64,000 bases of DNA from Arthrobacter sp. 131MFCol6.1 (lineage in GTDB: Bacteria; Actinomycetota; Actinomycetes; Actinomycetales; Micrococcaceae): the NCBI RefSeq assembly GCF_000374925.1, contig NZ_KB895543.1, forward strand, positions 62,001 through 126,000, written 5' to 3'. The translations under genes were made by a program, and so were the position numbers. Below are positions 15,425 through 27,438 of this stretch, in pieces (the first letter of the stretch is position 1; each line of letters opens with the position of its first letter). The notes below the pieces were generated by a model. That model did not search any database, was not told where the DNA came from, and saw only the letters and a program-made list of their open reading frames with translations.

Positions 15425-16948
15425 ATGACTCAACCGACTGCTGAACACGTAGGCATCCTGCTCCGCGAGGCGCGCGGGGCCAAGGGCTGGACCCAGGGAC
15501 AACTCGCCGCCGAGCTCGGCACCAGCCAGAGCGCCATCGCCCGGATGGAACAGGGCAAGCAGAACCTGAGCCTGAAGATGATCCAGCGCCTGGAGGCGAT
15601 CGTCGGGCACAGCATCGTCAAGGTGGGCCGGCCCCAGATGACCCACCTGCGCGTCGAGGGCGGCCGCACGCTCGCCGGCGCGGTGGACGTCAACAGCAGC
15701 AAGAATGCCGGCGTCGCGCTGTTGTGCGCCAGCCTCATCAACCGCGGCACCACCACCCTGCGCCGGCTGGCCCGGATCGAGGAAGTGAACCGGATTGTGG
15801 AGGTGCTGACCAGCATCGGCGTCGAATGCACCTGGCTCAACGCGAACGACCTCCAGATCCGCCGCCCCGCGGTCCTGGACCTGGCATCCATGGATGTGGA
15901 GGCGGCCCGCCGGACCCGCAGCGTCATCATGCTCCTGGGCCCGCTGCTGGACGAGGCCGACACCTACCGGCTGCCCTACGCCGGCGGCTGCGACCTCGGC
16001 ACCCGCACCGTACAGCCGCACATGCAGGCGCTGCGCCAGTTCGGCCTCAGCGTGGAGGCGAAGTCCGGGTTCTATGCGGTGCAGGCGCCGCCGGCGGACG
16101 GTCACGACCGCTCCTTCGTGCTCAGCGAACGCGGCGACACCGTCACCGAGAACGCCATCATGGCCGCAGCCCACCGCCGTGGCACCACCATCATCCGCAA
16201 TGCCAGCCCGAACTACATGGTGCAGGATCTGTGCTTCTACCTGCAGATGCTCGGCGTCGACATCGCCGGGGTTGGCACCACCACGCTGAAGATCACCGGA
16301 CGCCCGTCGATTGACGCCGACGTCGAATACTTCCCGTCCGAGGACCCGATCGAGGCGATGAGCCTCATCACCGCCGGCATCGTGACGAACTCGGAAGTCA
16401 CCATCCGCCGCGTCCCGATCGAGTTCATGGAAATCGAACTGGCCACGCTCGAACAGATGGGCCAGCGGCTCGAGGTTTCCGGGGAGTACTTTGCCCGGAA
16501 CGGCCGCACCCGCCTGGTGGACGTCACCACCAAGCCTTCGGAGCTGCGGGCGCCGGAGGACAAGATCCACCCCATGCCCTTCCCCGGCCTGAACATCGAC
16601 AACCTGCCCTTCTTCGCGGTGATCGCCGCCAACGCCCACGGCCAGACCATGATCCATGACTGGGTCTACGAGAACCGGGCCATTTACCTGACCGAACTCA
16701 ACAAGCTCGGCGCCCAGGTCCAGCTGCTCGATCCGCACCGCATCTACGTCAACGGGCCCAGCAAATGGCGTGCGGCGGAGGTGGGCTGCCCGCCGGCGCT
16801 CCGCCCCGCCGCCTGCCTGCTGCTGGCCATGCTGGCGGCCCGAGGCGTCTCGGAGCTGAGGAACATTTACGTCATTGAGCGCGGCTATGAGGACCTGGCT
16901 GAGCGGCTGAACACCATCGGCGCGAAGATCGAGTACTTCCAGGACTGA
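15425..16948 (+). CDS. HTH-XRE domain fused to a MurA-type enolpyruvyl transferase
   Basis: A 507-residue protein. Residues about 7-65 form a Cro/C1-type helix-turn-helix (LREARGAKGWTQGQLAAELGTS followed by QSAIARMEQGKQNLS). Residues about 75-505 form a UDP-GlcNAc 1-carboxyvinyltransferase (EPSP-synthase fold). Catalytic residues of MurA are retained: Lys93 in SSKNA, Cys189 in GGCDLGTR, Asp392 in NIDNLP and Arg460 in LRPAAC. The enzyme half is therefore probably active, unlike a pure regulator. It may couple peptidoglycan precursor synthesis to DNA binding. Sequence identity to canonical MurA looks modest, and a separate housekeeping MurA presumably exists elsewhere. It stands alone, followed by a large hairpin. 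Confidence 0.88.
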   Translation: MTQPTAEHVGILLREARGAKGWTQGQLAAELGTSQSAIARMEQGKQNLSLKMIQRLEAIVGHSIVKVGRPQMTHLRVEGGRTLAGAVDVNSSKNAGVALLCASLINRGTTTLRRLARIEEVNRIVEVLTSIGVECTWLNANDLQIRRPAVLDLASMDVEAARRTRSVIMLLGPLLDEADTYRLPYAGGCDLGTRTVQPHMQALRQFGLSVEAKSGFYAVQAPPADGHDRSFVLSERGDTVTENAIMAAAHRRGTTIIRNASPNYMVQDLCFYLQMLGVDIAGVGTTTLKITGRPSIDADVEYFPSEDPIEAMSLITAGIVTNSEVTIRRVPIEFMEIELATLEQMGQRLEVSGEYFARNGRTRLVDVTTKPSELRAPEDKIHPMPFPGLNIDNLPFFAVIAANAHGQTMIHDWVYENRAIYLTELNKLGAQVQLLDPHRIYVNGPSKWRAAEVGCPPALRPAACLLLAMLAARGVSELRNIYVIERGYEDLAERLNTIGAKIEYFQD

Positions 16949-17058: not shown

Positions 17059-18243
17059 ATGCGCACCTTCGGCGTGGAGGAAGAACTGCTGATAGTGGAC
17101 CCCGAATCGGGGATGCTGCTTGCCCTCGCTGACCTCATGCTGCCGAGTCTGGTGCCGCCGCAGCAGGAAGCCGCCAGGGTTCTCCCGGCCCAGAAGCCGG
17201 TCCACGAAGGCGCCGATTTCAGCTACGAACTCAAGCTCGAACAGATTGAGACCCAGACGCATCCGTGCCTGGAGTACACGGAACTGCTCCGGCAGCTCAG
17301 GCGTGGCCGGGCCCTCGCGGACCAGGCCGCCCGGGCGCACGGCGGCCGCGTCGCGGCCCTGGCTACGTCGCCCCAGGGCTCCGCCACGCACCTGACGCCG
17401 AATCCCCGCTATATGACCATGCAGCAGCGCTTCGGGCTCACCGTCCGGAACCAGCTGACCTGCGGCCTCCACGTCCACACCTTTGTGGAGTCCCCGGAGG
17501 AGGGCGTGGCCGTGATGGACCGGATCCGCGACAAACTGGCCGTGCTGATAGCGCTCAGCGCGAATTCCCCCTATTGGAACGGGGCCGAGACCGGATTCGA
17601 GAGCTACCGCACGCAGGCCTGGAACCGCTGGCCGGGCTCGGGTCCCACGATGATCTTCGGCAGCCTCCCCGTCTACCGCCGCGTGGTCACCCGGCTGGTG
17701 GAAAGCGGCGTCCTGATGGATGAGGGAATGGTCTATTTCGACGCGCGGCTGTGCCGTCAGCATCCCACCGTGGAGATCCGGGTCGCGGATGTCTGCCTGC
17801 GGGCCGAGGACGCTGCCCTCATTGCCGTGCTGGTGCGCGCCCTCGTGGAGTCGGCGGCGCGGGAATGGAACGACGGCGTCGATCCCGCCCCGGTGCCCAC
17901 GCTGCTGCTGCGGATGGCCGCCTGGCAGGCCAGCAATTGCGGGCTGCGCGGGGAGCTCCTGGACTTCGGAACCTTCACCCCTGCCCCGGCTGCGGACGTG
18001 GTCAGGGCGCTAGTGGACTTCGTGGCCCCGGTGCTTGAGGAGCAGGGCGAGCTGGAGCTGGCGCGCGAGGGCGTCGAGCGGATTCTGGCAGAGGGCACCG
18101 GTTCGCAGCTGCAGCGCGGCCCGTTCCGGGCCGGTGGCCTGCCCGCCGTCGTCGAGCGGGCCATCGAACTGACCACCGAGGGGCCCGTCACCGAAGGGCC
18201 GGCCGATAATCGTTCGCCCCTGGGCCGGTTGCGCCCGGCCTGA
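17059..18243 (+). CDS. YbdK-type carboxylate-amine ligase (glutamate-cysteine ligase 2 family)
   Basis: A 394-residue cytoplasmic enzyme of the GCS2 family. The N-terminus [14 protein letters not shown] is the standard start, with the two Glu residues belonging to the metal/ATP site. Further family motifs are [19 protein letters not shown] and [17 protein letters not shown]. The family makes an amide between a carboxylate and an amine using ATP; E. coli YbdK has weak glutamate-cysteine ligase activity. True substrates here are unknown, since mycothiol rather than glutathione is the usual actinobacterial thiol. ATG 17059 was chosen because a start at 17005 would fall within the inverted repeat. 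Confidence 0.9.
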
Positions 18244-18844
18244 CCGGGAGCCGGCATCAGTTGCGGGTGCGGGATGCCAAAAGGAAAAAGAGCCGAAGAG
18301 GCGCCGCATTCATTGCCGAACGCTGATATGGATTCACGGTTGTTTAATGATTGGCTCCCCGCCTTTTCCAAAAAAAATTGTTTCCGTTCGGCCCGGCACG
18401 CCCCCGTTCGGACCGCGAAAGCCTGATCCGGGTAGTCGACACAAGAAATATGAGTACTACCTGTAGCCGCCATTAATTCAGTTCACTGAGGTTCGGGTAG
18501 TGCCTACTCGGGCGCCCTGATAGGCCGCTCGCCTTTACTGGAGGAGCAGGTTCAAGGTTTTCCAAAGGTTTCCAGAAGGTCTCACCATGTCACGTAACAC
18601 GCCGGGGGGCGGTTGTGCTGTGCCACATACGCGCTGGTCAACGTCCTGCAGTGCTCGTACAGCCGGCAGTGGCTGCACCTTTCGCCGGCGGGCACCCTGC
18701 CAGGGGGTGCCGCGAGCAGATTCAGAAAATGGCCCCGCTCACTTCCCAGAGCCCGGTTCGCTTATGCGAACGGGCCTGAAGATCAGACCGCTTAATCCGG
18801 CCCGGCACTGGGGTGCCGAATTTCAACCTAGGAATTGAATTCAT
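18244..18844 (+). other. 600-bp intergenic region: direct half-sites, conserved element and hairpin-rich leader
   Basis: No convincing gene is present. At 18431-18436 and 18456-18461, GGTAGT and ACTACC form an inverted pair. A palindrome-like site is at 18492-18510. Downstream are AAGGTTTTCCA and AAGGTTTCCA repeats (about 18553-18573). Three hairpins follow: GGCACCC/GGGTGCC (18691-18711), GCCCG-TTCGC with GCGAA-CGGGC (18751-18775) and CGGCAC/GTGCCG (18803-18818). The region is AT-richer near 18290-18380. It probably carries the promoter and a long structured 5' leader of the polysaccharide operon. Confidence 0.5.
18492..18544 (+). promoter_or_regulatory. Upstream element shared with the second ATP-grasp locus (copy 1)
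   Basis: TTCGGGTAGTGCCTACTCG (18492-18510) contains the near-palindrome GGGTAG-TGC-CTACTC. Some 24 nt later comes TCGCC, then TTTACTGGAGG ending at 18544. The same two blocks, with nearly the same spacing, occur at 25271-25323 ahead of the paralogous ATP-grasp gene. The first block matches at 17 of 19 positions. I interpret it as an operator plus core promoter or leader start; the regulator is unknown. Confidence 0.55.
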
Positions 18845-19750
18845 ATGGTCTCGATTTATGTCTTGCTCATCGTTTTCCTGATTACTTTTGTGGTCGCCGC
18901 CGCCCTTGGCCGGTCCTGGTTCCATCGCCGCTTGCGCCGTCCCGAACTGCTCCGCAGGATTTGCCTTGTTGCCGGCTCAACGCTGCTGGTGGCAAATCTG
19001 GCCAGCGTTTTCCTCGAGGCGCCCGAGTTGTGGCGGACTGCCGACCTCACGCTTACGCTGGGCGGGCTCGCGTCCCTGGGCGTTGCTTTGACGGCCCTGC
19101 GCACCGGGGGAGCCCCGGCCCGCCAGCCCCGCAGAGTGCTGGCCATCGGCGCCCACCCCGACGACCTTGAACTTGCTTGCGGCGGTACCCTGGCGAAGTT
19201 CGTAGACTCCGGACATGAGGTGCAGGGGCTCGTCATGAGCGATGGCACCCGTGGCGGGGATCCCCTGGAACGCTCCCTCGACGCGCAGCGCGGCGCGGCG
19301 TTCATGGGCCTCACCGGAATGACCCACTACAACTTCACAGACACGGACCTGTTCCGGCACAGCCAGGAAATGGTGGGTGTCATCGAAGCCGCGATTGCCC
19401 GGTACAACCCGGACATCATCCTCACGCATTCCAACCACGACCAGCACCAGGACCATCAGGCCGTCCACATGGCGACGCTGCGGGCCGCCCGCCAGCACCA
19501 CTCAATCCTCTGCTATGAGAGCCCGTCGGCAACGCGGGACTTCAGCCCGAGCGTCTTCATTGACATCGACGACTACCTTGACGCCAAGGTCCAGGCCGTG
19601 AGGATGCACAGCGACCAGCGCGCCAAGCCGTACATGACGCCCGAGCGGGTACGCGGCATCGCCTCGTTCCGCGGCGGACAGGCGAGGCGCCGGGTCGCCG
19701 AAGCCTACGAACCCGTCCGTCTGCTGAGCACGGAAATGGAAAAACTGTGA
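18845..19750 (+). CDS. Membrane-anchored PIG-L family de-N-acetylase
   Basis: A 301-residue protein. Residues 1-90 contain three hydrophobic helices (about 3-22, 40-58 and 68-86). The positive-inside rule (RSWFHRRLRRPELLRR after helix 1, RQPRR after helix 3) places the enzyme domain in the cytoplasm. The LmbE/PIG-L domain follows, with the zinc-binding AHPDD at 103-107 and HQDH at 201-204. Family members remove acetyl groups from GlcNAc-containing lipids, antibiotics or thiols. Its stop overlaps the ATP-grasp start by 4 nt, and a glycosyltransferase follows, so an aminosugar polysaccharide or its precursor is the likely substrate. A weak AGGAA precedes the ATG. Confidence 0.9.
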   Translation: MVSIYVLLIVFLITFVVAAALGRSWFHRRLRRPELLRRICLVAGSTLLVANLASVFLEAPELWRTADLTLTLGGLASLGVALTALRTGGAPARQPRRVLAIGAHPDDLELACGGTLAKFVDSGHEVQGLVMSDGTRGGDPLERSLDAQRGAAFMGLTGMTHYNFTDTDLFRHSQEMVGVIEAAIARYNPDIILTHSNHDQHQDHQAVHMATLRAARQHHSILCYESPSATRDFSPSVFIDIDDYLDAKVQAVRMHSDQRAKPYMTPERVRGIASFRGGQARRRVAEAYEPVRLLSTEMEKL

Positions 19751-20691
19751 GGCCCCGGGTGCTGGTCACCGGTGCCGGAGGCCCCGCGGGCCGCGCCATA
19801 GCGGCCCAGCTGAAGTCCCGTGGCGTTCCCGTCCTGGGCACGGACATCCGCGAGCTGCCCGCCGGGGCGGGCGTCACCGTCGTTCCGGTGCCGCCGGCCT
19901 CGGACCCCGATATGGTCTCGGCGCTGCGCCGGCTCGTCGTCCAGGAGGGCATCAACCTGGTCATTCCCACGGTGAGCGAGGAACTCCCGCAGCTGGCGGG
20001 ATACCGTGCCGCCTTCGGGACCGACGTCCGGGTCATCATCGGCGATCCCGGTCCGGTGGCTCTCGCCAACGACAAGCTCTTCACGGCCTGGCAGCTGCAG
20101 ACGGCCGGGGTCCCCGTGCCGAGGTTCGGCGTGCCCAGGGACTTCGCCAATGCCGGCGCCGCCATGGCCGCGCTCGGCGGCCCCATAGTTCTCAAGCCGC
20201 GGGTCTCCCGCGGCGGACGCGGCGTGATGGTCATCGACGGAAGCAAACAGGTGGACTGGCACCGCCTGCCGGAGGGCCAGATTGTCCAGGAGTTCATCCC
20301 GGGCACCGAATACGGCCCCATGGTTTTCGGCACCCCGGCGCACAACGGGGCCGCGCCGTTCGTCGTCGTCGTGGAGAAGACGGAACTGGCGCAGGGCATC
20401 GTGGGCAACGCCGTGACCACCCGCCGCGCCGAAGCCGGCGAGGCCATGGACGTCGGAAATCTGGCGATGGCCGCCGTCCGCTCACTGGGGCTCACGGGCC
20501 CGGTCGACGTCGACGTCCGCCGGCGTGCCGACGGGACCCCGGTGGTCCTTGAAGTGAACGCACGGTTCGGCGCGAACAGCGGGCGGGCCCCGGAACTGCT
20601 CGACGCCGTCCTGGCGTCGTTTGACCTTTCCTCCTTCAACCCGGCCTCGTTCCGGCACAGCACAGGAGCGTACGCCCATGTCCTGGTTTAG
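19747..20691 (+). CDS. ATP-grasp ligase, apparently active paralogue
   Basis: A 314-residue protein with an N-terminal Rossmann-like domain (residues 1-100, VLVTGAGGPAGRAIAAQL) and an ATP-grasp domain resembling carbamoyl-phosphate-synthase-type ligases. The ATP-binding Lys lies in IVLKPRVSRGGRGV, with an intact glycine-rich loop. The metal-binding residues are present in VLEVNARFGANSG (Glu and Asn, about residues 268-271). ATP-grasp enzymes join a carboxylate to an amine or similar nucleophile through an acyl phosphate. The position between a deacetylase that exposes amines and a glycosyltransferase suggests acylation or aminoacylation of an aminosugar; this is inference. It overlaps both neighbours. 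Confidence 0.88.
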   Translation: MRPRVLVTGAGGPAGRAIAAQLKSRGVPVLGTDIRELPAGAGVTVVPVPPASDPDMVSALRRLVVQEGINLVIPTVSEELPQLAGYRAAFGTDVRVIIGDPGPVALANDKLFTAWQLQTAGVPVPRFGVPRDFANAGAAMAALGGPIVLKPRVSRGGRGVMVIDGSKQVDWHRLPEGQIVQEFIPGTEYGPMVFGTPAHNGAAPFVVVVEKTELAQGIVGNAVTTRRAEAGEAMDVGNLAMAAVRSLGLTGPVDVDVRRRADGTPVVLEVNARFGANSGRAPELLDAVLASFDLSSFNPASFRHSTGAYAHVLV

Positions 20692-21973
20692 TTCCGCCTC
20701 CGCCTCTGCCGTCCCCGGGGCCGAGTACCTCCTGCTCCTGATCGGCCTGCCGATTCTGGTGTTCGGGCTCGTGAAGCTGCTCGTACTGCCGCTGTCCATC
20801 TGGTTTGAACTCCGGGCGGGGCGCCGCCGCCGCCGCGCAACGCCCACCCTGCTGGATGAGGGGCCCAGCGTGTCGATCATTGTCCCGGCTTTCAACGAGG
20901 CGACCGTCATCGAGAACTGCGTCCGCTCCATTCAGCTCACCCTGTACGACCGGTACGAGGTGGTGCTCGTGGATGACGGTTCCACTGACAACACGGCCGC
21001 GCTCATGCATGCTCTCGCCGGGTCGGATCCCCGGATCACGGTCCTGACCCAGGCCAATGCCGGCAAGGGGGCGGCCCTGAATCTGGGCATCCGCCAGGCC
21101 ACGGGCGAGGTCCTCATGTTTGTCGACGCGGACGGGATCTTCTCCCAGAACACGGTCAAGCGGATGCTCCAGGGTTTCACCGACCAGCGCACCGGGGCCG
21201 TGTGCGGCGATGACCGGCCGGTAAACCTGGACCGGGTCCAGACCCGGATGCTGGCCTTCATCAGCCATGTCGGCACCGGGATGGTCAGGCGCGCCCTGAC
21301 CATGATCGGCTGCCTCCCGATCGTCTCCGGCAACATTGGGGCGTTCCCCCGCCGGGTCCTGGAGGAGATCGGGCCGTTCCGCGAAGACACGGTAGGCGAG
21401 GACCTGGAACTCACCTGGCGGGTGCACAAGGCAGGGTACCGGGTGGTCTTCGCCCCGGAGGCGCTGGTCTATGCCGAGTCGCCGTCAACCGTCCGGGCGC
21501 TCTGGCGCCAGCGCGTCCGCTGGGCCCGCGGGCTGCTGCAGACCATGGGTGTGCACAAGCGCATGATCGGCAACCTGCGGCACGGCCAGTTCGGCGCGTA
21601 CCTGCTGTTCAACACCATCACCATGGTGGTGCTCCCGGTGCTCCAGATTCTCGTGCTCGTGGATCTGGTCTTCCTCGTGGCGCTGGGCCGCAGCCCGTTC
21701 GGCGCGGACGTCTGGGCAATCCTTGGCTGGGTGGGGCTGTTCATCACCTTGCTGCTCACGGTGTTTGCCCTGGCCATGAACAGGGCGTGGAAGGACCTGC
21801 GGCACCTCTGGGCGCTCCCGCTCATCCCGCTCTATTCCGTGTTTACGAGCCTGACCATGGTGGCGGCGCTGGTGCAGGAACTCCGCGGCAAGGAGGCGCA
21901 CTGGAATAAGCTGACGCGGACCGGTGTGGTCAGCGTCACCGCCCCGGCGGTGCGCCCGGAGGCCAGCGTTTGA
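20678..21973 (+). CDS. Processive family-2 glycosyltransferase (PgaC/NodC/cellulose-synthase type)
   Basis: A 431-residue membrane enzyme. There is one N-terminal helix (about 16-40), a GT-A domain with VSIIVPAFNE, DDGSTDN, DAD at 150-152 and GED at 240-242, and the QRVRW motif at 278-282 that marks processive synthases. At least three C-terminal membrane helices follow. Such enzymes polymerise and export beta-linked sugars, for example poly-GlcNAc, hyaluronan or cellulose. The nearby deacetylase makes an N-acetylglucosamine polymer most likely. ATG 20678 follows AGGAG at 20664-20668; the start overlaps the ATP-grasp gene by 14 nt. Confidence 0.9.
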   Translation: MSWFSSASASAVPGAEYLLLLIGLPILVFGLVKLLVLPLSIWFELRAGRRRRRATPTLLDEGPSVSIIVPAFNEATVIENCVRSIQLTLYDRYEVVLVDDGSTDNTAALMHALAGSDPRITVLTQANAGKGAALNLGIRQATGEVLMFVDADGIFSQNTVKRMLQGFTDQRTGAVCGDDRPVNLDRVQTRMLAFISHVGTGMVRRALTMIGCLPIVSGNIGAFPRRVLEEIGPFREDTVGEDLELTWRVHKAGYRVVFAPEALVYAESPSTVRALWRQRVRWARGLLQTMGVHKRMIGNLRHGQFGAYLLFNTITMVVLPVLQILVLVDLVFLVALGRSPFGADVWAILGWVGLFITLLLTVFALAMNRAWKDLRHLWALPLIPLYSVFTSLTMVAALVQELRGKEAHWNKLTRTGVVSVTAPAVRPEASV

Positions 21974-23061
21974 GGCGCAGACCGGCTGCCTCCCCTGCTC
22001 TGGTGTTCCTGTCGGTGCTGGCGCTTGCTGCCTCTGGGTGCGGCGGGCCGCAGGGCCCCACGGCGCCCGCCGCGGAGCGCACAGTCGGTGTCGGCTACGA
22101 AACCGTGGTCGATGCCGCCTCGACGTTGCCGGAACTGGCCAGACGGCTCGATGAGGTCAACGCCAACAGCGTCACCATCAGCGTGGGGCGGCTGGACTGG
22201 ACGGCGTTCCCTTGGGACGCCCACCCCGGGATTGAGGCCGTCCCGGGCCGCGACCACGTGGCCGAAGCGGTCAAGGTACTGGGGACCGGCGGCGATGGCA
22301 GGAAACGCAGGATCACACTGACCATCGACTTGCTGATCCCCGGCTGGATCAGCACCAACCCGGGCCTGGCCGGCATCAACTTCGACGGCACCCGCTCCAC
22401 GGACTTCGCCAGCGTCACCGCACTCACAACGGGACCCGTCGGGGAGCGGCTCGTCGACTTCGTGGCCGAAGTGACCAGGCGGTACCAGCCGGACGCCGTG
22501 GCCTTGACGGAACTGATGTTCGACAACAACACCTACGGCGGCGACGACCGCGACTCGTACATGCTGGCCAGCGGCGGGACGGACTGGCCGCGGCTCGCGA
22601 ACGGGGACATCGACGTCGGACATCCCAGTCTTGGGGCCTGGCGGTCGAAGGCGGTGGCAGCCGTCGTGGCCAGGGCGGCGGCGGCCGCGCACGCGAACGG
22701 TGCCACGCTCGACATGGACGTCCGGGCGCCGTGGCACGATCCTGCCGGCGACCGGCCGGAGAGCGGCCATGACTACGGGCTGCTCGCCGCGGCCGCGGAC
22801 CGGCTGGTCTTATGGGACTATTTTGGGCTCAACGACGCCGCTCCGTCCTACTCCGCCGAGCTGGCCGCGGCCATGGCGAAGCGGTCCGGCAAGTTCGCGA
22901 TCTCGGTCGGGATGTGGGCCAAGGAGGGGCGTATCTCCGCCGCGGACCTGGCGGCCGGGCTGGAGGCGGCCGTCTCCGGCGGGGCGGCCGCCGTCGCCGT
23001 CACACCATCCAGCATGCTCGACGACGACGCCTGGCGGTCGCTCAAGGCGGCGTGGGCCTGA
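21970..23061 (+). CDS. Secreted lipoprotein, putative polysaccharide hydrolase
   Basis: A 363-residue protein with a TTG start overlapping the glycosyltransferase stop. The signal peptide is type II: basic RRRP, a hydrophobic core and the lipobox LAASGC with Cys24 as the anchor. The mature part repeats alternating strand/helix units (TVGVGYETV, SVTISVGRL, RITLTIDLLIPGW, AVALTELMFDN, TLDMDVRAPWHD, RLVLWDYFGL, KFAISVGMW, AVAVTPSSM), consistent with a TIM-barrel glycoside-hydrolase-like fold. Acidic residues at strand ends (TELMFDN and WDYFG) could be catalytic. PgaB in poly-GlcNAc systems also carries a hydrolase barrel next to the synthase. No family could be named with certainty. Confidence 0.75.
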   Translation: MRRRPAASPALVFLSVLALAASGCGGPQGPTAPAAERTVGVGYETVVDAASTLPELARRLDEVNANSVTISVGRLDWTAFPWDAHPGIEAVPGRDHVAEAVKVLGTGGDGRKRRITLTIDLLIPGWISTNPGLAGINFDGTRSTDFASVTALTTGPVGERLVDFVAEVTRRYQPDAVALTELMFDNNTYGGDDRDSYMLASGGTDWPRLANGDIDVGHPSLGAWRSKAVAAVVARAAAAAHANGATLDMDVRAPWHDPAGDRPESGHDYGLLAAAADRLVLWDYFGLNDAAPSYSAELAAAMAKRSGKFAISVGMWAKEGRISAADLAAGLEAAVSGGAAAVAVTPSSMLDDDAWRSLKAAWA

Positions 23062-23089
23062 GCGGCAACAGCCTTAAACTGCTTGAGCC

Positions 23090-24298
23090 CTAGACCTGCT
23101 TGAGTGCCTGGCCGAGGTCGCGGATGAGGTCCTCGACGTCCTCCAGGCCCACCGAAAGCCGGACCACACCGTCGCTGAGCCCGATCGCCGCGCGGCCTTC
23201 CGGACCCATCGCGCGGTGCGTGGTGGTGGCCGGGTGCGTGATGAGCGTCTTGGCGTCGCCGAGGTTGTTGGAGATGTCGATGATCCGCAGCGCGTCCAGG
23301 AGTGCGAACGCGGCCTGCTTCGCCGTGCGGCCGGGGGAGGGCTGCAGCTCCAGGGTGAGCACGGTCCCGCCGGCCTTCATCTGCTGCACCGCCAGCCGGT
23401 ACTGCGGGTGGGACGGCAGCAGCGGGTACTTTACCCAGCCGACCGCAGGCTGTTCCTCGAGCCATTCGGCCAGCCGCAGCGCCGAGGCCGAGGAATGGTT
23501 GACGCGCAAGGCCATGGTCTCCAGGCCCTTGGTGAGCACCCAGGCATTGAACGCCGAAAGCGCCGGACCGGTGTGCCGCATGAGCTGTTTGACGGGCCCG
23601 TCGATGAATTCCCTGGTGCCCAGGATGGCCCCGCCCAGGACCCGGCCCTGGCCGTCGATGTGCTTGGTGCCGGAGTAGACCACCACGTCCGCGCCGAGGT
23701 CGCCGCAGCGCTGCAGCAGCGGGGTGGCGAAGACGTTGTCTACCACCACCGTGGCGCCGGCCGCATGCGCCAGTTTGCTCACGGCGGCGATGTCCACGAT
23801 TTCCTGCATGGGGTTCGACGGCGACTCGAAGAACACCGCGGTGGTCGGCTCGGACAGCGCGGCTTGCCACTGCTCCAGGTCCGGGCCGTCCACGAAGACC
23901 GTCTCGACACCCCAGCGCGGCAGGATCTCGTTGAGGATCACGAAGCACGAGCCGAACAGCGAGCGGGCCGCGACCACCCGGTCGCCGGCCGCCAACAGCG
24001 CGCCCAGGGCGGTGAAAACGGCGGACATGCCGGACGCCGTCGCAAAACACGCCTCCGTTCCCTCGAGCAGCCGGAGCCGCTCCTGGAAGGTGGCGACGGA
24101 GGGGTTGCCGTAGCGGGAGTAGACGAAGCGCTCGTCCTCCCCGGTGAAGGCGCGCTCGGCGGCAGCCGCGGACTCGTAGACGAATCCTGAGTTGAGGAAG
24201 ATCGGCTCGGTGGTTTCCTGGAAGCCGGTGCGGTCAAGGCCGCCGCGGACAGCCTGGGTGTCGGCCGCCCAGCCGGCGGCGTCGGGATTGAAAGTCAC
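23090..24298 (-). CDS. metZ: O-succinylhomoserine sulfhydrylase
   Basis: A 402-residue PLP enzyme of the Cys/Met metabolism family. It makes homocysteine from an activated homoserine and sulfide in methionine biosynthesis. The PLP lysine lies in VVYSGTKHIDGQGRVLGG. Other family segments are YSRYGNPSVATFQERL, ATASGMSAVFTAL and DNVFATPLLQ. The PLP-anchoring SGTKHIDGQGR and the VNHSSASALRLAEWL region fit MetZ better than MetB. It is the last gene of an operon with a rhodanese (1-nt junction) and a DUF1737 gene, all downstream of a SAM-IV-type riboswitch, which supports the methionine assignment. Confidence 0.92.
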   Translation of the reverse strand: MTFNPDAAGWAADTQAVRGGLDRTGFQETTEPIFLNSGFVYESAAAAERAFTGEDERFVYSRYGNPSVATFQERLRLLEGTEACFATASGMSAVFTALGALLAAGDRVVAARSLFGSCFVILNEILPRWGVETVFVDGPDLEQWQAALSEPTTAVFFESPSNPMQEIVDIAAVSKLAHAAGATVVVDNVFATPLLQRCGDLGADVVVYSGTKHIDGQGRVLGGAILGTREFIDGPVKQLMRHTGPALSAFNAWVLTKGLETMALRVNHSSASALRLAEWLEEQPAVGWVKYPLLPSHPQYRLAVQQMKAGGTVLTLELQPSPGRTAKQAAFALLDALRIIDISNNLGDAKTLITHPATTTHRAMGPEGRAAIGLSDGVVRLSVGLEDVEDLIRDLGQALKQV

Positions 24299-24718
24299 TT
24301 AAATCTTTCCGAGGTTGGTGGGCAGGCCGCGGTTCTTCCAGCCGTTGACGGTGCGTTCGCCGAAGCGGTCGGTCTCGCCTTCGAAGCCCTCAAGGACGTT
24401 GTAGGAGGTGAAGCCGGCTGCCGTCGCGGCCGTCGCGGCGGCGATCGACCGGGCACCGGAGCGGCAAAGGAACACCAGTTCGACGGCGGTGTCCTCCGGC
24501 GCCTGCTGCCTTAGCTGTTCCACGAAGTGCGGGTTCGGCGTGCCGCCGGCGAGGTTCCACTGGATGAAGAGCGGATCGTTGCGGCTTTCGCCCGCAGCCG
24601 CGGTGTCCGGGATACCGATGTGGGCCCATTCGCCCTCGGTTCGGACATCCACCAGGATGGCTCCGGCCTCCAGCTTGGCCCACGCCTCAGCCGGGCTGAG
24701 GTCTCCGGCGTAGCTCAT
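24299..24718 (-). CDS. Rhodanese-like sulfurtransferase
   Basis: A 139-residue single-domain rhodanese. The active-site loop CRSGAR (about residues 102-107) holds the sulfur-accepting Cys, preceded by LVFL. The N-terminal CH2A-like motif ILVDVRTEGEWAHIGIP is present. It may supply or carry sulfane sulfur for homocysteine formation by the adjacent MetZ, as their genes abut. It overlaps the upstream DUF1737 gene by 4 nt (ATGA), indicating coupling. Confidence 0.92.
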   Translation of the reverse strand: MSYAGDLSPAEAWAKLEAGAILVDVRTEGEWAHIGIPDTAAAGESRNDPLFIQWNLAGGTPNPHFVEQLRQQAPEDTAVELVFLCRSGARSIAAATAATAAGFTSYNVLEGFEGETDRFGERTVNGWKNRGLPTNLGKI

Positions 24719-25044
24719 GCGTGGCCCGCGAAGGCCCCGTCGGCGCCAAACTCGTCGGCGTCGAGCTCATCAACCGCATTGGCCACGGCGGCGTCCGCAC
24801 TTGCAATCGCGGCCGGCAGGACCAGCGCCTGCGCCACGATCACGGTGCTTCCGTTGAAGCTGGCGGCGGGGCTTCCGTGCAGCACATAGCCCTCGGCCAG
24901 GGCGGCTGACACCCGCTCGCAAAAGGCGCGGTCATCCGCGCCGGTGAACAGGCGGTAGGCCAGCCTTTCCTCGCCGGCGGCCGCGCTGGGGGCTGCGGCG
25001 GGGACTGTACTGGTGGCTGGTGTGGGTGTTGACGTGTCGGGCAC
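24715..25044 (-). CDS. DUF1737 domain protein
   Basis: A 109-residue protein with a low-complexity Thr/Pro/Ala N-terminus (about 25 residues), then a DUF1737 domain: RLAYRLFTGADDRAFCERVSAALAEG, then YVLHGSPAASFNG and VIVAQALVLP. The family has no proven function; it resembles a small helix-hairpin-strand module. GTG 25044 is set by AGAGGAG 9-15 nt upstream on the minus strand. As the first gene of the riboswitch-controlled operon, it is probably tied to sulfur or methionine metabolism. Confidence 0.85.
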   Translation of the reverse strand: MPDTSTPTPATSTVPAAAPSAAAGEERLAYRLFTGADDRAFCERVSAALAEGYVLHGSPAASFNGSTVIVAQALVLPAAIASADAAVANAVDELDADEFGADGAFAGHA

Positions 25045-25088
25045 GACGGATCTCCTCTTTCACGCTTGCAGCTCGAATGGTCGATATG

Positions 25089-25172
25089 CCGAGTATTCAC
25101 CTGAGGCACCCCGCCGCGAAAAGGGAGGGTTGCCGACCGGCCAGTCAGGGCTTGGCGCCGGTTCTCATTACT
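25089..25172 (-). ncRNA. SAM-IV riboswitch
   Basis: Read on the minus strand, the segment contains the SAM-IV hallmarks: AATGAGAACCGGCGCCAAGC, then a stem closing around CTGGCCGGTCGGCAACCCTCC. Then GCGGCGGGGTGCCTCAGGTGA follows. The order TGAG-GCCAAGCCC-GGCAACC-GGTGC-AGGTGA matches the actinobacterial SAM-IV aptamer rather than SAM-I. It sits 45 nt upstream of the DUF1737-rhodanese-metZ operon, so S-adenosylmethionine would repress homocysteine synthesis. Ends are approximate. Confidence 0.85.
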
Positions 25173-25270
25173 CCCCAAAAACGTAACACCTGCGACGCCG
25201 GCCCGCACCGCCGCCCTCGTCATGTTCCGTAACCGGACCGTGGCCCGGGCGAGTAGTGGCGGGCTGCAGT

Positions 25271-25323
25271 TTCGGGTACTGCCCACTCGTGTCTGCCGGG
25301 ACGTTTCGCCGTCTACTGGAGGG
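25271..25323 (+). promoter_or_regulatory. Upstream element shared with the first ATP-grasp locus (copy 2)
   Basis: TTCGGGTACTGCCCACTCG (25271-25289), followed by TCGCCGTCTACTGGAGGG ending at 25323, repeats the element at 18492-18544. The distance between the two blocks differs by a single base. A further GAGTAGTGG half-site is at 25251-25259. It lies 170 nt upstream of the second ATP-grasp gene, leaving an untranslated leader. The shared sequence suggests a common regulator or a duplicated upstream region. Confidence 0.55.
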
Positions 25324-25490
25324 ATTAGGTCCGACGCGTCGGCTGGCGCTGCAGGTGATTCTGGCAGTTTGTGAATCGAGCAGTCCGTGAAACGACTCGT
25401 CTGTCCATCAACAGGCTGTCTGAGAATCGGTGGCTGGAACGGTCGGAGCCGCAGCCGCGGTCCGGCCGGTGACGGCGGAATGGAGCAATC

Positions 25491-26459
25491 GTGGGCCCGC
25501 GCATACTCGTTACCGGGATTACCAGCGCCGCCGGACGGGCCGTCGCGGCCCAGCTCGAAGCCCGGGGTCTCCCGTACCTCGGCTCCGATGCCCGCGCCGA
25601 CACCCGCGCCGACACCCGCCAGGGCGGCGAGGCCCCCGCCGCCGCCGCGGTCAGGCTCCTGCCGGCGACGGACCCGGACATGATCCTGGACCTGCGCCGG
25701 CTGGTGGACCGCGAAGCCATCAACGTCATCATTCCGACCCTCACCGTGGAACTCCCGGTCCTGGCCGCGGCCCGCGCCGGATTCGCCCAGGACGTGCGGA
25801 TCATCGTGGGTGATCCTGCCGCGGTGGCCCTCGCCAACGATCAGCTGTTCACCACCTGGGCGCTGCAGGCAGCCGGCATTCCGGTGCCCCGGTTCGCGGT
25901 TCCGGGCGACCTCGCCGCCGCGCCGGCATCCCTCGCCGGCCTCAGCGGTCCCGTGGTGGTCAAGCCGCGGGTCTTCAAAGGCTCCCATGGTGTCCACTTG
26001 CTGGCCGGGACCGCCTCCGTTAGCTGGAAGAACCTGCCGGCGGGGCAACTGGTCCAGGAATTCATCCCGGGCGCCGACTACGTGTGCCTGGTGTTCGGTA
26101 CCCCGGCGCGCAACGCGATGGCCCCGGTGGCGGTGGTCCTCGAGAAGACCAGGACTCCGTATGGACGCGCCGGCAGCGACGAAGTCAGCCGGAGGGTGCC
26201 GGCGGATCAGGCCGGGGATGTGCGCAAGCTGGGTCTGGCCGCCGTCCGCACGCTCGGGCTGACCGGGCCGGTCCAGGTCCAGATCCGCCGCCGCACCGAC
26301 GGAACGCCCGTGGTGCTGGGTGTCTGCGCGACCCTGGGGGAGAACAGCACGTGGGCCCCGGAAATGCTCGACGCCGTGCTGGCAACGTTCACGCTCCCGG
26401 CGTTCAACCCGGCCTCCTTCCGCCGGTGCCCGGCGGTGCCAGCGGACGCCCTGGGGTGA
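25491..26459 (+). CDS. ATP-grasp paralogue with lost metal-binding residues (likely pseudoenzyme)
   Basis: A 322-residue protein clearly paralogous to the gene at 19747-20691 along its full length (shared TDPDMILDLRRLV-like, VIIPT, RIIVGDPAAVALAND, PVPRF, LVQEFIPGADY and SFNPASFR-like blocks). The ATP-binding Lys is kept (VVVKPRV), but the C-terminal catalytic segment reads VVLGVCATLGENS where the paralogue has VVLEVNARFGANS. The Mg-binding Glu and Asn are replaced by Gly and Cys, the Arg by Thr, and the upstream DVDVR by QVQIR. It is therefore probably inactive as a ligase. GTG 25491 follows GGAG at 25482-25485. A role as a regulatory or structural partner is inference. Confidence 0.85.
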   Translation: MGPRILVTGITSAAGRAVAAQLEARGLPYLGSDARADTRADTRQGGEAPAAAAVRLLPATDPDMILDLRRLVDREAINVIIPTLTVELPVLAAARAGFAQDVRIIVGDPAAVALANDQLFTTWALQAAGIPVPRFAVPGDLAAAPASLAGLSGPVVVKPRVFKGSHGVHLLAGTASVSWKNLPAGQLVQEFIPGADYVCLVFGTPARNAMAPVAVVLEKTRTPYGRAGSDEVSRRVPADQAGDVRKLGLAAVRTLGLTGPVQVQIRRRTDGTPVVLGVCATLGENSTWAPEMLDAVLATFTLPAFNPASFRRCPAVPADALG

Positions 26460-26469
26460 TCCCGCGCTG

Positions 26470-27438
26470 CTATTCGATGGTGGCGAAGAGGGCGTTGAGT
26501 TCGGCCGTGAGCTGGCGCCGCAGTTCCGGGGTGCCGATTTCCTGGCCGTCGATGTGGTTCACCGGGGCCAGGAGCCGGATGCTGGAGATCAGCCAGACCG
26601 CGTCGGCGTCCAGCAGGTCCTTCGGCTCCAGCGGGCCGTAGCCCAGTTCCCAGCCGGCAGCCTTGGCGGCGGTGAACAGGGCGCCCTGTGACGTGCCGGG
26701 CAGGATGCCGCTGTCCAGCTGGGGGGTGATGAGCCGCCGGACGGTGCGGACGCCGCCGGCGCCGTCGTCCGAGGTTTCCAGGTGGGCCAGCAGAACGGTC
26801 GACGTCGGACCCTCCAGCACCCGGCCGTCCGCGGACGTGAAGATGACGTCGTCGGCGCCCTGCCGGTGGGCGTAGCGCAACGCCGCCATGTTCACGGCGT
26901 AGGAAAGGGTCTTGGCGCCGAGCAGGAGCCACGGGGCGCGCTCGCCGACTTCACTGTCGTAGCCGCGGTCCAGCAGGATGACGTCGATCCCGGTCTCGCG
27001 CTGCCGGCGGCCCGCGGCCGCTGGCGCGGAGGCCTGGACCCAGCATGTAGGCGAAGCCGCGCCCTCCGGCCCGCGGGTGACAATCAGCTTCACCACCACC
27101 TCGTCCTGCCCCGTGCCGCCCGCTGCAGCCGCGGCAGGTTCCTGCCCCCGGAACTCGCGGATGGCGGTTTCCACCGCCCGCCGCCATGCGTCCTCGGCCG
27201 GGATGTCCAGCTCCAGCAGCCGGGCCGAGCCCGCCAGCCGGGTCAGGTGCGCCTGGATCTTGCGGGGCCGGCCGCCGACGGCCAGCAGGGATTCGAATAC
27301 GCCGTCGCCGCGGGTGGCGCCCAGGTCCGTGGCCATCAGTTGCGGCTGGGACGCGTCGGCAACGCGGCCGCCGTCGAATGCCGGGTCGAGGAAGACCAGC
27401 ACGGTCGCGGGCGCAGGAACGGGGGCAGGAGTGGTCAT
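26470..27438 (-). CDS. pabC: Aminodeoxychorismate lyase
   Basis: A 322-residue fold-type IV PLP enzyme, related to branched-chain aminotransferases. The PLP lysine lies in LGAKTLSYAVNMAALRYA, followed by DDVIFTSADGRVLEGPTSTVLL and ITPQLDSGILPGTS, the cofactor-binding segments. It should release pyruvate from 4-amino-4-deoxychorismate to give p-aminobenzoate for folate. Assignment to PabC rather than a transaminase rests on the presence of pabB 1.6 kb away. The genes are separated by a divergently read cardiolipin synthase, so they are not one transcript. Confidence 0.85.
   Translation of the reverse strand: MTTPAPVPAPATVLVFLDPAFDGGRVADASQPQLMATDLGATRGDGVFESLLAVGGRPRKIQAHLTRLAGSARLLELDIPAEDAWRRAVETAIREFRGQEPAAAAAGGTGQDEVVVKLIVTRGPEGAASPTCWVQASAPAAAGRRQRETGIDVILLDRGYDSEVGERAPWLLLGAKTLSYAVNMAALRYAHRQGADDVIFTSADGRVLEGPTSTVLLAHLETSDDGAGGVRTVRRLITPQLDSGILPGTSQGALFTAAKAAGWELGYGPLEPKDLLDADAVWLISSIRLLAPVNHIDGQEIGTPELRRQLTAELNALFATIE

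Follow-up and report, generated by a model that had tools for sequence, protein, structure and literature searches.

The 64,000-nucleotide stretch of Arthrobacter sp. 131MFCol6.1 analysed here (the window; contig NZ_KB895543.1, positions 62,001 to 126,000) contains a four-gene operon encoding, in this order, a PIG-L deacetylase, an ATP-grasp enzyme, a glycosyltransferase family 2 (GT2) synthase and a lipoprotein, which form one conserved unit. The operon may constitute a Pga-like polysaccharide machine, in which an amino sugar would be deacetylated in the cytoplasm and N-modified by the ATP-grasp enzyme before export, the four genes together making and finishing a surface aminosugar polymer; we favour this reading tentatively, with somewhat less than even confidence. 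A wider and more doubtful proposal is that actinomycetes possess a regulated pathway in which cytoplasmic PIG-L and ATP-grasp enzymes would replace the N-acetyl group on an aminosugar by a different acyl group, perhaps an aminoacyl, ahead of a PgaC-like synthase, leading to an undescribed N-acylated polyglucosamine, with one branch switched by phosphorylation of a receiver-deacetylase.

Successive open reading frames (ORFs) of the unit overlap by 4, 14 and 4 nucleotides (Table 1), in agreement with the first-pass annotation of this DNA, which had already taken the four genes as a single unit; a longer version of the GT2 protein could start at a TTG at 20621. All four genes are under purifying selection, with ratios of non-synonymous to synonymous substitution (dN/dS) of 0.09 to 0.28 against seven relatives (Nei-Gojobori script), and are less constrained than a neighbouring sulfur gene used for comparison (0.05 to 0.08).

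Table 1. Positions of the operon genes and of other features discussed (window numbering unless a locus is named)
Feature	Position	Strand	Remarks
PIG-L (LmbE-type) de-N-acetylase	18845..19750	+	ATG start, 301 aa; Pfam PF02585
ATP-grasp enzyme (carbamoyl-phosphate-synthase-like, PRK12767 type)	19747..20691	+	GTG start, 314 aa; Pfam PF02655
GT2 synthase, PgaC/IcaA-like	20678..21973	+	ATG start, 431 aa; Glycos_transf_2, TIGR03937
Lipoprotein with predicted TIM barrel, PgaB-hydrolase-like	21970..23061	+	TTG start, 363 aa; AlphaFold2 model
Second, degenerate ATP-grasp gene	25491..26459	+	58% identical to operon ATP-grasp; ExN replaced by GVC
Candidate regulatory element CCYACTCGGG-N6-GATAG...TTTACT	18503..18539	+	about 300 nt upstream of operon; conserved block
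Receiver domain fused to PIG-L	L035:5763-6854; L078:5724-6857; L080:7909-8985; L092:7235-8251		mostly with a histidine kinase nearby

The first protein carries both marks of the PIG-L family, a PF02585 domain (Pfam; E 2e-24, 87 bits against a cut-off of 28.2) and the AHPDD motif (19151-19165), invariant in the five sequences aligned, and its solved relatives in the Protein Data Bank (PDB) include LmbE/BshB-type and diacetylchitobiose deacetylases. Identity with a mycothiol or bacillithiol deacetylase was ruled out by the NCBIfam cut-offs, all of them above the scores obtained (BshB1 85.3 against 182.5 bits, BshB2 41.9 against 195.25, MshB 20.8 against 224.35 and Mca 24.3 against 277.15); the host genome holds three further PIG-L genes, one of them Mca-like by eye. 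The N-terminal part of the protein shows three hydrophobic segments (residues about 1-19, 39-57 and 67-85), the third being weak. The loop joining segments 2 and 3 has a net charge of -2 to +1 and in all 22 membrane-type PIG-Ls is less positive than the 18 residues preceding segment 2 (+2 to +6). In 20 of the 22 it is also less positive than the link (0 to +5) that leads to the catalytic domain from segment 3, which was placed by script as the most hydrophobic stretch ahead of the AHPDD motif; the remaining two (L034, L074) are ties. Moreover, the five receiver-fused PIG-Ls tested (L035, L036, L078, L080, L092) all lack a hydrophobic segment. Because of this positive-inside pattern, and because a receiver domain replaces the membrane anchor in these relatives, deacetylation is probably cytoplasmic, as the first-pass annotation had predicted.

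The second protein shows the two features expected of the ATP-grasp superfamily, a match to ATP-grasp_3 (PF02655; E 1.4e-14, 54.9 bits against a cut-off of 23.2) and, at 20551-20559, the ExN motif, which holds the metal-site Glu and Asn of ATP-grasp enzymes. The third protein matches Glycos_transf_2 (E 4.3e-34, 118.3 bits against a cut-off of 23.3), and its best NCBIfam model is TIGR03937 (PgaC_IcaA), covered over nearly the full model length with a score below the cut-off of 422.3 bits; identity to Escherichia coli PgaC is 30% over 294 columns. It contains the motifs VDDGS, DAD, GED and QRVRW and, at the threshold applied, one N-terminal and three C-terminal hydrophobic segments. The QxxRW motif is a mark of processive synthases, and the whole set (D, DxD, ED and QxxRW followed by C-terminal membrane segments) points to a synthase that is predicted to be processive.

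As for the lipoprotein, neither Pfam nor NCBIfam gave a match at E 0.01, and PDB sequence searches returned nothing credible. Its Cys24 (22039-22041) belongs to a lipobox judged by eye, and the N-termini of two counterparts (L023, L024) resemble a membrane anchor more than a lipobox. The first-pass annotation had called this protein a hydrolase and had proposed a structure prediction, and the resulting AlphaFold2 model, built from a 13-sequence input with a predicted local distance difference test (pLDDT) score of 89.3, is a triose-phosphate isomerase (TIM) barrel whose nearest solved fold in a VIA comparison with 1000 chains is the C-terminal domain of E. coli PgaB (4p7q; Z 27.7, root-mean-square deviation 3.0 Å, 310 residues aligned). 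The protein is thus predicted to share its fold with glycoside hydrolase family 153 (GH153), the family of the PgaB hydrolase domain; since Cwp19 (Z 26.6) and, after Bordetella PgaB (26.5), GH42 barrels (25.6) score close to it, the fold alone does not settle the family. A Thr180-Glu181 pair (22507-22512) past strand 4 is invariant in all 13 rows, and Glu181, the candidate acid, sits, by eye, near the position of D474 of Bordetella PgaB, reported as its probable catalytic Asp (PMC5933820).

These same matches bear on whether the product might be a short or lipid-linked glycan rather than a polymer. By analogy with mycothiol and bacillithiol, or with NodC-NodB-NodA, a glycosyltransferase, a PIG-L and an ATP-dependent ligase would then build a small molecule, and the lipoprotein would act on it after export. 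The lead of BshB1 (85 bits) among the NCBIfam relatives of the PIG-L, its LmbE/BshB-type and diacetylchitobiose deacetylase relatives in the PDB and the match of the GT2 protein to the NodC model (97 bits, cut-off 550) would suit such a product, but PgaC_IcaA fits the GT2 protein about twice as well (199.7 bits), the QxxRW motif is present and the lipoprotein fold resembles that of a polymer hydrolase, all of which makes a short glycan unlikely.

The polymer reading that we prefer draws further on the conservation of the cluster. A lipoprotein profile search with one genome per species yielded 11 loci, ten in Arthrobacter and one in Microbacterium, all of them with the four genes and ten with the same order. 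To these were added the window, L011 (genome G137), L033 (G560), L034 (G508), L035 (G643), L036 (G796), L092 (G1007) and L091, giving 19 distinct loci, with L010 and L012, whose contigs have the lengths of those of L017 and L023, treated as repeats of these and counted once; all were found through the lipoprotein, so the sample is biased to complete sets. PIG-L, ATP-grasp and GT2 genes accompany an intact lipoprotein gene in 19 of 19 loci, and the search for the gene order in relatives that the first-pass annotation had suggested was successful, the window order recurring in 15 of them, with one rearrangement in A. horti (L023) and the PIG-L gene lying in a convergent operon in three (L035, L036, L092). 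No stop codon interrupts the aligned stretches of the four genes in the window or in the other 18 loci, and a further genome (G075, L013) retains nothing more of the lipoprotein gene than fragments interrupted by stops. Pairwise distances of the four proteins correlate across 16 of the 19 loci (r 0.90-0.97), a measure to which shared species history contributes and which cannot tell co-function from shared descent. In Arthrobacter sp. StoSoilB13 (L091, NZ_AP024649.1 812884-827876), a replicon of 1 Mb annotated as a plasmid holds the whole cluster, flanked there by sigma factor and phosphoenolpyruvate (PEP) carboxylase genes that each match in two pieces (perhaps frameshifts or alignment breaks).

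Searches anchored on the enzymes lead to the same association. Among 396 genomes of the order, the PIG-L query (E 1e-30) found 41 places, and in all ten that scored above 290 bits, own genome included, the ATP-grasp gene lies directly downstream, followed by GT2. Among the matches listed, an ATP-grasp match is no more than 5 kb away from 33 of the 41 places (23 seen on loci, L116 known from L035, six on other loci and three by coordinates, namely G455 and the second places of G508 and G619), so that places without an ATP-grasp gene are the exception and the enzyme stands as the built-in member that the first-pass annotation had taken it for. The ATP-grasp query gave, among the matches listed, 16 places above 200 bits in the same genomes, of which 12 adjoin PIG-L and GT2, those of G643 and G796 with the PIG-L a few kb off.

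A wider module emerges once a second subfamily of ATP-grasp enzymes, sharing about 33% identity with the first, is considered: the order PIG-L, ATP-grasp, PHP phosphoesterase, GT2 was found in 13 of 13 loci (L054-L066) and also in L078 and L093. A receiver-PIG-L query matched over at least 330 residues in ten of these 13 loci and over 219-272 in L054, L055 and L057; judged by eye, the receiver part is apparently degenerate in L079 and L081, which correspond to L054 and L057. In the first subfamily, the ATP-grasp gene adjoins a receiver-PIG-L gene and a histidine kinase in L035, L036 and L092. Pfam confirmed the receiver, PIG-L, PAS and kinase domains in L035 and the PHP domain in L080, the other assignments coming from tblastn and reading. 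The fusion is apparently an enzymatic response regulator, and in a class-level search (E 1e-45) it occurred in five of 296 genomes, adjoining ATP-grasp and GT2 genes in four. Three module loci (L069, L070, L072) have, upstream, a sigma-factor-like gene and a gene for a Big_8-domain protein, the domain scoring above cut-off in two and just below in L072, with an LPXTG-like anchor below cut-off in L069.

Several observations weigh against the reading that we favour. Segment 3 is weak in the window PIG-L (1.51) and in its nearest relatives (1.3-1.6), and if only two membrane segments were real the catalytic domain would face outward. Foldseek ranks Cwp19 and beta-amylase ahead of PgaB as relatives of the lipoprotein, and hhalign found no relation between the lipoprotein and the single E. 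coli PgaB sequence (probability 0.2%). The cluster is patchy and hence dispensable: the lipoprotein matched in five of 149 genomes of the family, own and fragmentary matches included, its profile in eight of 396 of the order, own included and one (G790, E 9.8e-4, 18 bits) probably a chance match, and a phylum-wide search with the single lipoprotein sequence recovered the own genome only (1 of 296). Five module loci (L069, L070, L072, L073, L074) have no lipoprotein gene within about 16 kb. Three receiver-PIG-L genes have no ATP-grasp neighbour, with only a kinase seen alongside (L120, L122 and L094, the last from the fifth genome of the class-level search), and A. horti, where ATP-grasp, PIG-L, GT2 and lipoprotein genes are followed by a second set of PIG-L, GT2 and lipoprotein, has no ATP-grasp gene in that second set, though the same locus holds one. 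Eight of the 41 PIG-L relatives, all of a distant tier, have no ATP-grasp gene within 5 kb among the matches listed; six of them (L111, L115, L117, L120, L122, L123) have none within 1.5 kb, the other two being G705 and G714. Finally, the ATP-grasp gene stands alone at G738, G063 and G563 and as a second copy in the window, which with G520 and G750 (about 160 bits) makes six solo lineages. The coupling of PIG-L and ATP-grasp is thus not exclusive.

These solo genes lend themselves to another explanation, in which the polymer would be a free-amine polyglucosamine made from cytoplasmically deacetylated sugar and the ATP-grasp enzyme would contribute to this process through a small molecule of its own. 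It would accord with the very existence of solo genes (L068, L071 and four others) and with the intact metal site of L068, the one solo lineage that keeps the ExN motif, itself a further point against a dedicated partnership. However, all 24 module copies of the first subfamily retain ExN, while it is lost in five of the six solo lineages, namely L071, L075, L076, L077 and the window second copy, counted as one lineage with three orthologues (Fisher p 4e-5, for a motif picked post hoc and sequences related by descent, hence not independent). PIG-L and ATP-grasp genes are, besides, immediate neighbours in 15 of the 19 lipoprotein loci and 13 of the 13 second-subfamily loci, and a separate product seems rather unlikely. 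In three module copies (L024, L036, L092) a different residue stands in place of Glu210, which is otherwise conserved. The solo genes of L068 (7905-8828) and L071 (7920-8849) lie between sigma factor and PEP carboxylase genes, a site that carries the whole cluster in L011, L021 and L022.

The second copy in the window, which the first-pass annotation does not mention, is flanked by DUF1737 and aminotransferase IV genes, a position occupied by the complete cluster in L017 and L020. Its dN/dS of 0.12-0.15 against three relatives (four related genomes including the window) indicates purifying selection, and it resembles a pseudoenzyme retained at the other chromosomal site of the cluster.

On the amide chemistry that we suggest for the operon enzyme, as the first-pass annotation had done, structure accords as well with carboxylation as with ligation. 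Its score of 111 bits with NF009402 (PRK12767 type) is under the equivalog cut-off of 218, and the best solved fold for its model (mc46fdbe5a019, pLDDT 85.1) is 2pn1 (Z 25.2), beyond which amide ligases (PylC 22.9, Ddl 22.7, BacD 22.2) tie with biotin carboxylase (22.7) and a PurK-type enzyme (22.2), which likewise counts against taking an amide for granted. The enzyme could, in the style of PurK or carbamoyl-phosphate synthase, N-carboxylate or carbamoylate the amine with bicarbonate, with no organic-acid amide being formed; 2pn1 is labelled a carbamoyl-phosphate synthase large subunit, and the carboxylase folds in the tie point the same way. That name, however, is the depositor's label, with no reaction shown, and PylC and amino acid ligases score equally, so we regard the bicarbonate route as quite improbable.

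With regard to the surroundings of the operon, the upstream block listed in Table 1 was found in eight of eight aligned upstream regions, representing two chromosomal sites, and it looks as if the cluster had moved together with its upstream region. Within the host genome the core pattern matches exactly once, at its own site, and since a reversed control pattern also finds one match, rarity alone says little. The block has no Rfam match at the gathering threshold and no consensus sigma-70 promoter; sigma-70 promoters (0 against 0.4 expected) and terminators (2 against 2.1) are not above chance. An RNA element upstream of the operon was rejected, the sole Rfam match at the gathering threshold within 17900-26500 being the SAM-IV riboswitch of the neighbouring operon (25057-25172, minus strand, 86.6 bits), which precedes DUF1737, rhodanese and presumed pyridoxal phosphate-dependent sulfur-metabolism genes. 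Four proteins neighbouring the operon are 99% identical to their counterparts in L015, and by protein identity the host stands very near Arthrobacter humicola. Further upstream, 15425-16948 encodes a MurA-like protein whose N-terminal region resembles a helix-turn-helix, probably a murA paralogue given its score of 312.6 bits under the murA cut-off of 392.7.

The pathway that we infer, from substrate and acyl donor to the polymer, the role of the barrel and control by phosphorylation, would start at the membrane, in the cytoplasm, with removal of the N-acetyl group from a precursor or acceptor of the N-acetylglucosamine type by the PIG-L enzyme. The ATP-grasp enzyme would then spend ATP to join a carboxylate-derived group to the freed amine, most likely as an amide, for instance an aminoacyl. 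Polymerization and export of the chain would be carried out by the PgaC/IcaA-like GT2 synthase, as its family suggests, and the lipid-anchored barrel may bind or trim the chain outside, like the hydrolase domain of PgaB. In the relatives with fused genes, a histidine kinase would control deacetylation through the receiver domain, so that removal of acetyl groups from the sugar would answer directly to a two-component signal. If this is true, aminosugar polymers would be custom-substituted inside the cell and not just deacetylated after export, which would offer a new control point for how charged and adhesive biofilm matrices are, as well as a source of new biopolymers. PIG-L, ATP-grasp and GT2 would also be a natural partner set, through which the substrate of an uncharacterised subfamily of ATP-grasp enzymes could be tested.

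No published description of a surface-sugar layout combining PIG-L/LmbE, ATP-grasp and GT2 was found in a search for which the subscription literature was mostly beyond reach, and known systems resemble the operon in part. Proteins of the PRK12767 type are alike in sequence and fold (NF009402, 2pn1), whereas the enzyme described here scores below the equivalog cut-off and has PIG-L and GT2 neighbours. Mycothiol (MshA-MshB-MshC) and bacillithiol (BshA-BshB-BshC) are made by a glycosyltransferase, a PIG-L deacetylase and an ATP-dependent ligation on the freed amine, a deacetylate-then-ligate logic that would here be placed ahead of polymerization; in contrast to them, the ligase of the operon is an ATP-grasp enzyme and not of the MshC or BshC kind, the glycosyltransferase is a membrane synthase and the PIG-L falls under their cut-offs. 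In Nod factor synthesis (NodC-NodB-NodA), a chitin-type synthase and a deacetylase are followed by re-acylation of the amine, but the NodC model is far under its cut-off here, and the deacetylase and acylating enzyme belong to other families.

The closest likeness is to pgaABCD and icaADBC, with which the operon shares a PgaC/IcaA-like GT2 synthase, a de-N-acetylase and an exported protein with a barrel like that of the PgaB hydrolase. The first-pass annotation had held that this is not the pga layout, which stands as regards the PIG-L-type, probably cytoplasmic deacetylase and the added ATP-grasp gene, while underselling the likeness of synthase and barrel. An ordinary poly-N-acetylglucosamine operon in which parts were exchanged but the chemistry is not new, to which the PgaC-like synthase and PgaB-like barrel might lead, is very improbable given the PgaC_IcaA score below cut-off, the lack of a carbohydrate esterase family 4 (CE4) deacetylase in the operon, gene overlaps that leave no space for a PgaD-like gene and the constant ATP-grasp gene. 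With Pfam, PIG-L was the only deacetylase of the operon, with no CE4 type (PgaB N-terminal domain or IcaB), and among operon ORFs of at least 100 aa no PgaD/IcaD partner was seen, the four overlapping and the next downstream gene being convergent. The pga and ica deacetylases, by contrast, are extracytoplasmic CE4 enzymes, that of PgaB being periplasmic (PMC5933820), whereas in the Arthrobacter operon deacetylation is probably cytoplasmic, the barrel is a separate lipoprotein and an ATP-grasp gene is added.

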